30,326 nucleotides of DNA from a virus. The position numbers and the translations under genes are program-made. The stretch covers positions 1 through 30,326 of the IMG/VR virus record IMGVR_UViG_3300007346_000135; one strand, written 5' to 3'. The notes under the pieces were generated by a model. It made no database searches and was not told the origin of the DNA. It worked only from the letters and a program-made list of their open reading frames with translations. Each line of letters opens with the position of its first letter. The first letter of the stretch is position 1. Positions 24,615 to 29,814 of this stretch are shown here, piece by piece.

Positions 24615-24887
24615 TTAATCCTTATTTTTGTATTTTAATAAAACTCTTCTATTATGCATGCTTATTTCTGTATTTACTTGAAATAAACTATATACAAATA
24701 GCACTAGTGCTATTGGCGATAGAATCAAACTACAAAAAGTTATTAATATAGCCCATGCTAGTTTATTTCTACCAATGTAAAAACAATGCACTCCAAAGAA
24801 ACCTAAAAAATAAGCAAGTAACCACGCTACAGTTTTGCTTTTCATCTCTTCTTTCATTAATATAATATTTATATTTTCATTATTCAT
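24615..24887 (-). CDS. TM2-domain membrane protein
   Basis: The 90-aa protein contains the TM2 signature: KSKTVAWLLAYFLGFFGVHC followed by FYIGRNKLAWAIL, a pair of membrane helices with a short GVHxFYIG turn. A further hydrophobic stretch ends near FVYSLFQVN. TM2 proteins occur widely in bacteria and sit in the inner membrane; their function is mostly unknown. In phage genomes they are uncommon accessory genes. TAAGGATAATT lies before the ATG. It is placed 15 bases after the cysteine-repeat gene. Confidence 0.8.
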   Translation of the reverse strand: MNNENINIILMKEEMKSKTVAWLLAYFLGFFGVHCFYIGRNKLAWAILITFCSLILSPIALVLFVYSLFQVNTEISMHNRRVLLKYKNKD

Positions 24888-24902
24888 TTTTAATTATCCT
24901 TA

Positions 24903-25433
24903 TCATTTATTCTGGCCGTTAAATGTTCCATATAATCCTTTGCGGTCATTGCAGTTTTTGCAGTCATCACAGTTTTTGCAGTCATCACAGTTTTTGCAGT
25001 AGTCGCAGTAGTCGCAGTAGTTGCAGAAGTTGCAGAAGTTGCTGTGGTAGCAGTAGTCGCAGAAGTTGCATTCATTGCAGTACTCGCAGAATTTGCATTC
25101 ATCACATTTTTTGCAAAAATTGCAGTTTTTGCAGTTATTGCAGTTATTGCATAAGTCGCAGTTATTGCAGTTTTTGCAGAAGTGGCAGTAAGTGCAGTTA
25201 TTACAGTTATTACAGTTTTTGCAGAAGTGGCAGTTATTACAGTTAGTGCAGAATTCGCATTCATCACATTTTTTGCAATTATAACAGTTATAGCAATTAA
25301 CGTTACTTTCATTATCTTTTTCTGCTTTTTCTATATCGCCATTATAGTATAGATCTAAAAACTCTTGAGTGACCCCATTTTCACGCCCATTTTTATTTTC
25401 TAAAAAATCTTCGTAATCTTTAAAAATTCTCAT
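24903..25433 (-). CDS. xxC triplet-repeat cysteine-rich protein, 176 aa
   Basis: Residues 1-46 form a charged domain with ENGVTQEFLDLYYNGD. From residue 47 to 161 every third residue is Cys: 38 Cys in 39 positions, the one exception being Ser131 within YHS. Residues between are mainly Asn, Asp, Lys, Tyr, Phe (NNC, KNC, HFC, DYC). No signal peptide is present. The DNA is a matching run of 9-base-like repeats, so other frames there are also open but are shadows. Such spacing could build a helical solenoid lined by cysteines, for metal binding or disulphides; this is inference. AAAAAGGACAA supports the ATG. Confidence 0.8.
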   Translation of the reverse strand: MRIFKDYEDFLENKNGRENGVTQEFLDLYYNGDIEKAEKDNESNVNCYNCYNCKKCDECEFCTNCNNCHFCKNCNNCNNCTYCHFCKNCNNCDLCNNCNNCKNCNFCKKCDECKFCEYCNECNFCDYCYHSNFCNFCNYCDYCDYCKNCDDCKNCDDCKNCNDRKGLYGTFNGQNK

Positions 25434-25459
25434 TTTTTTGTCCTTTTTGTTTAATTTTA

Positions 25460-25705
25460 TTATATATTTTGATTTTTGTTTTGTAATTCTCTAATACTAA
25501 TGAGCTTCGAATTACATATATCAAGTGCCTCAGAAGTACTTAGAAAACTTAAATATACATCGCCGATTGTATTAGTATTTCTGTATGAAGGCTTGACTTG
25601 TTGAGTCAAATAAGGTGTCGATTTTGGCGAAACATAGAAAGTGTCAAATAAACCGCATGAAGATATCAATATTGATAATATTAATATTGATAATAATTTA
25701 ATCAT
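25460..25705 (-). CDS. outer-membrane lipoprotein, putative o-spanin (Rz1-like)
   Basis: The 81-aa protein has a hydrophobic leader and a lipobox ISSC (Cys17), so the mature part would be lipid-anchored. It contains a Pro/Ser-rich stretch (PKSTPYLTQQVKPSY) and an end, SEALDICNSKLISIRELQ, resembling Rz1-type partners. It overlaps the i-spanin gene's end by eight bases. Together they would fuse inner and outer membranes during lysis of a Gram-negative cell. GGGAG lies upstream of the ATG within the i-spanin's codons. Confidence 0.65.
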   Translation of the reverse strand: MIKLLSILILSILISSCGLFDTFYVSPKSTPYLTQQVKPSYRNTNTIGDVYLSFLSTSEALDICNSKLISIRELQNKNQNI

Positions 25706-26030
25706 ATATATTTACTCCCGCAGGAGGGACTAATAAATATTTGTTTAAATCATCAGGGGTTTTGATTTCTAAAATACCGTCATCATCTTTTTTTATCTTT
25801 TCTAAAACTTTATAAAAATTATTTGAATATATTTCTTTTATTTTGTCAGTATCTTTCAGATTAGATATAGTCATCTCATTACTATCTAACCATGATTGTT
25901 GCATCTTATCCATGACATTAATAAGCTGTTTATTTTGTGCGGACAATTCTGCCATAGCAAAAACTAGATATATAAGTAAACCAATTCCAGAAAGTACAAT
26001 AATTATTTTAATTACGGCTTTTTCTAACAT
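25698..26030 (-). CDS. inner-membrane protein, putative i-spanin (Rz-like)
   Basis: The start is taken at the ATG 26030; a preceding TTG has no advantage. An N-terminal membrane helix (about residues 7-28, IIIVLSGIGLLIYLVFAMAE) is followed by a helical, likely coiled, periplasmic part (SAQNKQLINVMDKMQQSWLD). That architecture with an overlapping lipoprotein gene marks an i-spanin/o-spanin pair. It overlaps the upstream lipoprotein gene by 23 bases. Assigned by architecture rather than by a motif. Confidence 0.65.
   Translation of the reverse strand: MLEKAVIKIIIVLSGIGLLIYLVFAMAELSAQNKQLINVMDKMQQSWLDSNEMTISNLKDTDKIKEIYSNNFYKVLEKIKKDDDGILEIKTPDDLNKYLLVPPAGVNIYD
25715..25726 (-). promoter_or_regulatory. 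hairpin masking the o-spanin ribosome-binding site
   Basis: On the minus strand CTCC-TGCG-GGAG forms a 4-bp stem with a tetraloop, whose 3' arm is the GGGAG ribosome-binding site of the lipoprotein gene. It lies in the end of the i-spanin reading frame, so ribosomes translating that gene would open it. This would couple the two spanins. It is predicted from pairing only. Confidence 0.35.
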
Positions 26031-26532
26031 CAATCAAACCTATAACCTTTTTCTTAATAGATCTATAAATAGGGCTTAATGGCGAAGGAATTAAAAAAGA
26101 AAATAACATCATCAACAATAAATCAAATCTATTAATACCTACATTAAAGACATTATTATTTTGATTTCCTGTTACATAATCATCAGCTGTATTGCTTCTA
26201 GTATCTGTTTTAAGAGTTTTGTTGCTTAAATCAGTATGTTCACCACCGATAGAAAAAATAGTTTTGTCTTGGCTTGCTTTGAGTTGATTAGAGGTATCTT
26301 TATTTTTTAGTGTTGACCTTTCATATTTTTTTGAATTATTATCACTAAAATTTAAATCTAATTTAGCTTCACCTACCCCTTGAGTTCCAGAACCACCGCC
26401 GTCGATTTTATCGCCTTTTGAAAATTCTAATTTTGGATTTGTTGCATTCGGCAACATTCCGCAAGAAGCAAGCCAGAAACAAAACAATATTATTAATGAA
26501 ACACAAAACAAATCTAAAGCAGTTTGGTACAT
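26008..26532 (-). CDS. phage lipoprotein with C-terminal membrane helix
   Basis: The 174-aa protein has a hydrophobic leader ending in a lipobox LASC (Cys24), a long hydrophilic Ser/Asn/Asp/Lys-rich middle (with GDKIDGGGSGTQGVGEAKLD), and a C-terminal helix LLLMMLFSFLIPSPLSPIYR. The helix followed by IPSP is a feature I recall from lysis-cassette membrane proteins of other phages. It may therefore span the periplasm. Its ATG overlaps the stop of the upstream membrane gene (TAATG), indicating coupling. Function is not established. Confidence 0.6.
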   Translation of the reverse strand: MYQTALDLFCVSLIILFCFWLASCGMLPNATNPKLEFSKGDKIDGGGSGTQGVGEAKLDLNFSDNNSKKYERSTLKNKDTSNQLKASQDKTIFSIGGEHTDLSNKTLKTDTRSNTADDYVTGNQNNNVFNVGINRFDLLLMMLFSFLIPSPLSPIYRSIKKKVIGLIDVRKSRN

Positions 26533-27435: not shown

Positions 27436-27927
27436 TTATCTTAGTTTATATAGATCACTTCTATTTATCAGACTTACTTTATCAAATTTATTGCTCCAAA
27501 TAAACAAAACAGAACCTTTATTATTCCCATTAACGGGCTTACCAGTTTCACAGTTTATAAACGAAATTCTTCCACTAATAAATCTAACTTCACTACAGTT
27601 GTCAAAAGCCTTTTTAAACCATTGAACAGATGTATCAGAAGGAACTAACATAACTGTATTATTGCCTTTTTCATGCTCTAATATTGCTTTATCTACCCAA
27701 GGATTAATATTAGAGTATGGCGGGTTACACCAATTAGAAGTACTCCAATTAGAATTTAAAGCATCTTTTTCCTCATCAATATATTTGCTACAAAGGTTAT
27801 TTTTTTCACTTGCTGCAACATCACAGTTAAATTTAAATTCTTTATTCAATGTTTCAAAAATCTCTATAGGAGTTTGCCATAAATCCTTAATTTCTTTTTC
27901 AGTAAAACTTTTATTTTCAGTATTCAT
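27436..27927 (-). CDS. phage DNA N6-adenine methyltransferase (Dam-type)
   Basis: The 163-aa protein fits the phage N6-adenine methyltransferase family: WQTPIEIFETLNKEF near the start, the DVAAS segment (36-40) of the AdoMet-binding site, and the catalytic NPPY (68-71) in WCNPPYSN followed by INPWVDKA. The length is typical for the small phage Dam group. It would methylate adenine in phage DNA, probably to evade restriction or mark it for packaging. The recognition site is unknown. GGAGATAG supports the ATG, which overlaps the upstream stop. Confidence 0.85.
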   Translation of the reverse strand: MNTENKSFTEKEIKDLWQTPIEIFETLNKEFKFNCDVAASEKNNLCSKYIDEEKDALNSNWSTSNWCNPPYSNINPWVDKAILEHEKGNNTVMLVPSDTSVQWFKKAFDNCSEVRFISGRISFINCETGKPVNGNNKGSVLFIWSNKFDKVSLINRSDLYKLR

Positions 27928-29178: not shown

Positions 29179-29814
29179 TTAATAATTATCAATTTTACTA
29201 TTCAAAATAATTTCTTTTTGATTTTCAACATAAACAATAAAATCGTTTATTCTTTCTTTCATTTCTTCAAATTCATTTTTCAAATCTTCTTTATAAAGGC
29301 GATGAATGAATATTTTTTTATTGGTGGCGTAGTTATCACAGTAACTTATATAATCAATCCATTTTCTATTAGAAGCATATAAGTTAAAGTAAACCTGCCA
29401 CTTATAAGCTGGATCAACCCCCTGTCTTTTTATATTTGCAAAGTGTACAGTAGGTATAACAGATTTTACTTCTATAATTCCATCATCTTCTACCAATCCA
29501 TCGGGGGAGCAACCTAATACACCATCAGAGAAAAACCCACCTTTTTTGACTTCGCAAAAATTATATTCTTCATATAATGCTATTGCTAAAGGCTCTTGTT
29601 CATGTCCTCGAATCATGTGTCTATTAGTATAATCTGATTCTATTTTATTTCCTGTTATTTGCTCTATAGCTAAATTAATAGCGTATTTTTTAGCAACTTC
29701 TCCGAAAGATTTTCCGACATGTGCCATGATGCAACCAATCTTAGAACCAGTTATGACACCAGATCTTAGATCAAACCACTCTTCAGTATTTTGTCTAATA
29801 TCGTAAAAATTCAC
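29179..29814 (-). CDS. YqaJ-type viral recombinase / lambda-like exonuclease
   Basis: The 211-aa protein has the PD-(D/E)XK core of the lambda exonuclease/YqaJ family: TEEWFDLRSGVITGSKIG at the start, GHEQEP (70-75), CSPDG (Asp105) with IIEVKS (Glu115, Lys117), and QVYFNLYAS (140-148). It would digest double-stranded DNA 5' to 3' to leave strands for annealing. All key residues are present. A GTG start with GAGGGGTAAATT is used. No clear annealase was seen nearby, though the adjacent 167-aa protein or genes outside the window may supply it. Confidence 0.9.
   Translation of the reverse strand: MNFYDIRQNTEEWFDLRSGVITGSKIGCIMAHVGKSFGEVAKKYAINLAIEQITGNKIESDYTNRHMIRGHEQEPLAIALYEEYNFCEVKKGGFFSDGVLGCSPDGLVEDDGIIEVKSVIPTVHFANIKRQGVDPAYKWQVYFNLYASNRKWIDYISYCDNYATNKKIFIHRLYKEDLKNEFEEMKERINDFIVYVENQKEIILNSKIDNY

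Follow-up and report, generated by a model that had tools for sequence, protein, structure and literature searches.

We found that a minus-strand gene in a 30,326-bp virus record (hereafter the window, meaning the whole stretch of DNA analyzed) encodes a member of a widespread, conserved, modular and, as far as the literature searched shows, unstudied family of phage proteins built around an array in which cysteine returns at every third residue. Judging from sequence comparison, this array most likely takes the place of a beta-solenoid, and the exchange of parts between family members and known solenoid proteins is the strongest evidence on its nature. We favor, with moderate confidence, a cytoplasmic modular phage protein in which an N-terminal cap carries a narrow beta-solenoid rod with an almost all-cysteine core; encoded in early gene regions of phages, it would act as a scaffold for binding.

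The gene occupies positions 24903..25433 (-), stop codon included, and encodes 176 amino acids. Read from the DNA, it is a real gene: a ribosome-binding site, AAGGA, lies in the upstream sequence at 25441..25445 (-), 7 nt 5' of the ATG; the 45-residue N-terminal domain is found in many phages; the Cys codons are conserved; and homologues keep the same frame. A second minus-strand frame, 24890-25312, is also open across the array and was rejected as the true gene, as the conserved N-terminal domain is missing from it and it is the Cys frame that relatives preserve. Residues 1-45 (25299..25433, -) form the N-terminal domain, designated N1, a probable cap for the array that is shared with other phages. 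Residues 46-162 (24948..25298, -) form the predicted beta-solenoid, with 38 Cys in 39 xCx triplets, followed by a short polar tail at residues 163-176 (24906..24947, -). Translation confirmed what an earlier note on this DNA had reported, namely Cys at 38 of 39 triplet positions from residue 47 to 161 (47, 50 and so on), Ser131 being the lone exception; the binomial chance of such an array is ~1e-56 at the window Cys frequency of 0.03. The same note saw no signal peptide, and the N terminus indeed shows no hydrophobic signal; Cys makes up 22% of the protein. The array DNA is repetitive, and its Cys codons comprise 30 TGC and 8 TGT, with T fixed in 38/39 units and G in 39/39; because the third base varies and the flanking codons are diverse, the window array is not a frozen DNA repeat.

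The window protein matched phrog_15341 (PHROGs v4, function unassigned) at E 8.2e-15, with relatives reaching 5e-41, although the match rests largely on the Cys array. Together with many IMG/VR contigs, this match agrees with the statement of the earlier note that phages carry such proteins with no assigned function. No Pfam family, pentapeptide repeat PF00805 included, matched the window protein at E <= 1, nor did any NCBIfam entry. Relatives collected from IMG/VR and then from species genomes follow a common plan: an N-terminal domain, N1 or N2, then the Cys array, then a C-terminal domain, CA or CB, or nothing. N1 (consensus IFxSYxDFLxREDKxxNGVSxEFA...N) is common to the window, Vibrio phage 1.238, Flavobacterium phage FL-1 and more than 20 viral contigs, and alignment of the window with 6 relatives revealed invariant residues I, F, F, N, G, V, F, N, N and C. 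N2 (WLxDxNGNxCSVEYFGSxEAAQKAL) occurs mostly in alphaproteobacterial members. CA (HTCxTTHCRAGW...LAG) or CB (GLxWPV...IGCQxH...W..F) follows the array in most members, whereas the window protein stops 15 residues past the last Cys with neither domain, as comparison with L029, L034 and L003 indicated. Approximately 15 other N1 members also lack a C-terminal domain in the sequence examined, some of them being cut by contig ends. The earlier note had named an absence of homologues as evidence against its reading; homologues were found for N1 in other phages and for the array in phrog_15341.

Among 50,697 isolate phage records, tblastn recovered Cys-array proteins only in Vibrio phage 1.238 and Flavobacterium phage FL-1, against dozens of the metagenomic contigs examined, a rarity that may explain why the family went unnoticed. 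When isolate phages were searched directly with the window protein, tblastn gave no match, perhaps owing to low-complexity filtering that masks the array, and relatives were reached via L006 instead. A scan of species-genome contigs with the N1 alignment confirmed 0/172 pattern matches; the full alignment (A4), used afterwards on species genomes, yielded 33 loci. One candidate relative, L005, was discarded, as its Cys frame reads the opposite strand of a TIATQN repeat within the gene for a 1043-aa protein. No paper on triplet-Cys phage proteins was found in the literature searched, and a report of 'cysteine-rich repeats' in eukaryotes (PMC7379824) was set aside because it concerns defensin-like modules unrelated to the phage arrays. 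L002, L004 and many other metagenomic contigs terminate within the array, as expected if assemblers break there, and the family is thus probably under-counted. Individual loci also varied in annotation and arrangement. In FL-1 (KY421186; L012:3998-4702), the annotators missed the Cys-array ORF and called an overlapping frame with an Ala/Pro/Val repeat (APZ82901). At L044:4001-4132, N1 is fused in frame to the final CA residues with the array and most of CA absent, reflecting a deletion or an assembly collapse. At L007:4917-6082, two Cys-array genes are neighbors, and the second holds two arrays split by a repeated N2-like domain, a tandem duplication of the whole module.

Subsequently, we compared what precedes the C-terminal domains. 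CA relatives comprised 408 viral contigs, of which the best 80 were retained, and the 33 loci in species genomes. Among the loci classified, a Cys array precedes CA in 65 viral loci, drawn from the best 80 of 408 contigs, and in 14 genome loci, and pentapeptide repeats do so in 7 viral loci drawn from the same 80 and in 14 genome loci, the Cys:pentapeptide ratio being biased because the viral list was ranked by similarity to a Cys-array member. L074, counted as 'other' before CA, appears pentapeptide-like by eye. Likewise, CB follows Cys arrays in L003 and L006, pentapeptide repeats in L011, L015, L016 and L017, and, in a single case, the YdcK/hexapeptide solenoid of Vibrio phage 1.209 (L014). 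The pentapeptide relatives L015 and L016 match the pentapeptide-repeat Pfam family (PF00805) at E below 1e-50. Pentapeptide and hexapeptide repeats are established beta-solenoids; since the same C-terminal domains stand behind them, the Cys array is most likely a beta-solenoid too. Two further observations arose from these loci. The 'CRISPR spacers' annotated within the hexapeptide solenoid gene of Vibrio phage 1.209 (L014:3508-3821) are most likely a false call on the gene's own repeats, and a CA-like domain in a Phenylobacterium MAG (L077:2617-3234) lies behind an Ala/Trp/Arg-rich repeat that may represent another type of array.

Structure prediction pointed in the same direction at low confidence. 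AlphaFold2, run on the window protein with a 20-sequence alignment, gave a mean pLDDT of 59, with N1 at 75-90, the array at 54-71 to approximately residue 107 and values <50 past residue 109, where the alignment thins. In this low-confidence model, strand bridges recur at every third residue across 57-107, and the strands at 64-66 and 76-78 (three residues each) and 89-90 (two residues) are ~12 residues apart. The best solved match by VIA-align was the beetle antifreeze protein TmAFP (1ezg; Z 6.7, 79/82 residues; next Z 4.3), based on a modeled array at pLDDT 54-71; a Z below 8 can denote a common arrangement, and the predictor may have learned Cys composition, which would then underlie the match. 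When PDB sequences were searched by profile, independently of the model, 1ezg likewise came first, at E 0.046. Two viral proteins in BFVD were related by fold, one from Campylobacter phage IBB35 (E 2.7e-4) and one from the mimivirid ChoanoV1 (E 2.7e-3, with rmsd 0.9 across 58 columns). In the L029 model, the array was unfolded (pLDDT 25-38) and the CA domain confident; no structural match was found for this model, and CA gave weak matches only against PDB sequences. Among flanking residues, periodicity was mildly raised at lags of 2, 4 and 8 triplets and not at 6, so that the expected 12-residue signal was weak, and array lengths did not cluster at multiples of four triplets. A polyproline-II bundle of the snow flea antifreeze type was judged unlikely, given Pro at 0.04% of flanking residues and the strand bridges in the model. 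The solenoid proposed in the earlier note was borne out in part: domain exchange, the TmAFP top match, length changes by whole triplets and a coil of ~12 residues in the window model speak for it, whereas the low pLDDT and the unfolded L029 array leave the regular fold weakly predicted.

The genomic setting points toward DNA metabolism. The window belongs to a contractile-tailed phage of 31% GC whose terminase and tail-sheath best matches are mostly phages of gammaproteobacteria. Its minus-strand block holds a YqaJ recombinase/exonuclease (29179..29814, -; PF09588, E 6e-18), YopX and a DNA N-6-adenine methyltransferase, Dam (27436..27927, -; PF05869, E 1.8e-52), and continues leftward with the two spanin genes, then the Cys gene and the gene for a TM2 protein. 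Immediately upstream of the Cys gene lies an outer spanin, Rz1/LysC-like (25460..25705, -; PF23793, E 1.8e-6; phrog_456, E 2.9e-8), overlapped by a likely inner spanin (25698..26033, -) that is suggested by weak Rz-like PHROG matches (E 0.02-0.13) and by the gene arrangement; the TM2-domain membrane protein is downstream (24615..24887, -; PF05154, E 1.8e-12). The TM2 neighbor was correctly recognized in the earlier note, whereas its 'small exported proteins' turned out to be largely lysis genes. Its further suggestion of a membrane-linked accessory module found no support: across Cys-array relatives, the genes that recur nearby encode YqaJ recombinases (at 7 loci) and DNA methyltransferases (at 4 and 4), the operon in the window likewise includes YqaJ, Dam and YopX, and its membrane neighbors are the lysis spanins and the TM2 protein. 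A PADLOC search for defense systems returned no match. Elsewhere in the window, a Clp-protease-like phage protein (752-1309; PF00574, E 1e-8) is encoded upstream of the terminase genes.

The array might alternatively be a neutral DNA tandem repeat that grows and shrinks without function, as the earlier note also considered; its DNA is repetitive and its length varies widely, from 10 to 51 triplets (median 28) among the 95 distinct arrays that phages and bacterial genomes yielded. Yet Cys occupies 2667/2682 triplets in these arrays, and 10 of the 15 exceptions are Ser; selection of the arrays for >=75% period-3 Cys biases this figure upward and cannot account for 99.4%. Spacing is 3 in 2552/2583 Cys pairs, so that arrays are nearly always in phase, and length differences are nearly always whole triplets. 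Within the Cys codon, entropy amounts to 0.03 bits for T and G and rises to 0.70 for the third base, and bases of the flanking codons show 1.2-1.8. Cys is thus conserved far more strongly than synonymous positions, which indicates that selection acts on it; the flanking residues are 95% polar. Across genomes of 28-65% GC, Cys content holds at 99.3% (low GC) and 99.7% (high GC), while TGT use drops from 35% to 2% with rising GC and the flanking residues also shift. Stable Cys across GC and whole-triplet length changes argue strongly against neutral drift, as does the preservation of N1 and of the frame in unrelated phages, and we regard this alternative as very improbable. We assign equally little weight to a RiPP precursor whose N-terminal leader precedes a Cys-Xaa-Xaa core modified to thiazoles, a modification proposed for bacteriocins of the heterocycloanthracin type. 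That architecture resembles the heterocycloanthracin-type precursors, which carry a leader and CXX repeats in ~90 aa with ~13 Cys and have a cyclodehydratase partner (PMC2674419). However, YcaO is present in 0/12 phage records and 2/14 cellular genomes carrying the Cys-array gene, NCBIfam offers no match, most relatives have a conserved domain behind the array, and arrays extend to 51 triplets.

Two further alternatives, both unlikely, assign the array a different task. As a metal or redox module, the array would hold Zn, Cu(I) or Fe-S clusters on a regular ladder of thiolates and would serve to store metal or to pass electrons down the rod. The CxxC spacing is a classic one for metal sites, Cys is retained at 99.4% where a solenoid core could be filled by Ser, Ala or Val, a cytoplasmic location is probable, and CA also has conserved Cys and His (HTCxTTHC). 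Against this, neither Pfam nor NCBIfam revealed similarity to metallothionein or Fe-S families, CXXC zinc-finger chains appeared in PDB sequence searches at E 0.44 or worse only, and Cys-free pentapeptide arrays fill the same slot in related proteins. A more specific version, with an unbroken ladder of four thiols in each turn that takes up metal ions or Fe-S/Cu clusters along its length and makes the protein a 'wire' or metal sink in the host cytoplasm, is less probable still. The rod could instead mimic DNA and inhibit a topoisomerase or nuclease of the host, much as gyrase is inhibited by two pentapeptide proteins, MfpA and Qnr; MfpA mimics DNA (PMC10886550). Pentapeptide proteins carry the same C-terminal domains, the genes lie close to DNA-metabolism genes, and the arrays are mildly acidic (median -4.9 net charges per 100 aa), similar to paired pentapeptide arrays (-6.5). 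However, the window array carries just -4 over 117 residues, and some relatives are neutral or positive. Moreover, a pentapeptide coil, at ~20 residues, matches the width of DNA, and a 12-residue coil would be thinner.

We therefore return to the cytoplasmic binding rod, which is favored by the lack of a visible signal peptide together with the YqaJ and methyltransferase neighbors. In this mechanism, the Cys-triplet array would fold as a narrow beta-solenoid with ~12 residues, or four triplets, per coil, the Cys side chains buried inside and the intervening pair of polar residues exposed on the surface. The fold would resemble that of TmAFP, yet with Cys filling all four core positions per turn. 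As the protein has no signal peptide, the thiols are probably reduced and would simply pack the core, Cys being small and apolar enough to do so. The array would serve as a rigid rod, longer or shorter in whole-triplet steps, and a partner may bind to its polar faces; it is interchangeable with the pentapeptide and hexapeptide solenoids, which bear the same C-terminal domains in related proteins. Because the genes lie in early DNA-metabolism regions, the partner probably belongs to host DNA metabolism or takeover.

If this reading is right, a minimal beta-solenoid, a three-residue repeat with one invariant core residue, joins the phage toolkit, and three repeat types are swapped ahead of a common set of C-terminal domains. 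One architecture would then unite hundreds of phage genes that lack annotation, and the CA and CB domains would gain a testable role. With so much Cys and its thiols stacked in the core, a protein that is probably cytoplasmic would be unusual and would lend itself to studies of disulfide-free Cys packing or metal binding.

Among known proteins, the members of phrog_15341 share the Cys-triplet array of the window protein, and their family description carries no function and does not mention that modules are exchanged. Like the window protein, gp69 of Vibrio phage 1.238 (AUR97411; annotation 'insect antifreeze protein') has N1 and a Cys array, in its case with 23 in-phase Cys, and Flavobacterium phage FL-1 has both parts and additionally a CA domain split between frames. 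TmAFP from Tenebrio molitor (1EZG) has core residues at period 3, as the window array does, and a 12-residue coil like the one that the low-confidence window model suggests. Read at period 3, its sequence runs C-S-C-A-C-S-C-A, and the phage array would thus be the same lattice with Cys at every core position in place of the alternating core. TmAFP is secreted and disulfide-bonded and presents a Thr ice-binding face; by contrast, the phage protein has no signal peptide, and its array has no TxT face and little Thr (2 among 78 flanking positions in the window). At the level of sequence families the two do not meet, the PDB profile hit at E 0.046 being the only link. A parallel in organization is provided by the pentapeptide-repeat proteins of phages and prophages (phrog_31265, phrog_31567), which carry the same CA/CB domains in the same order of cap, solenoid and C-terminal domain and differ in their A(D/N)LxG pentapeptide array and N-terminal domain. 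Overall, the Cys array is most likely a new form of beta-solenoid rod rather than a new category of system.
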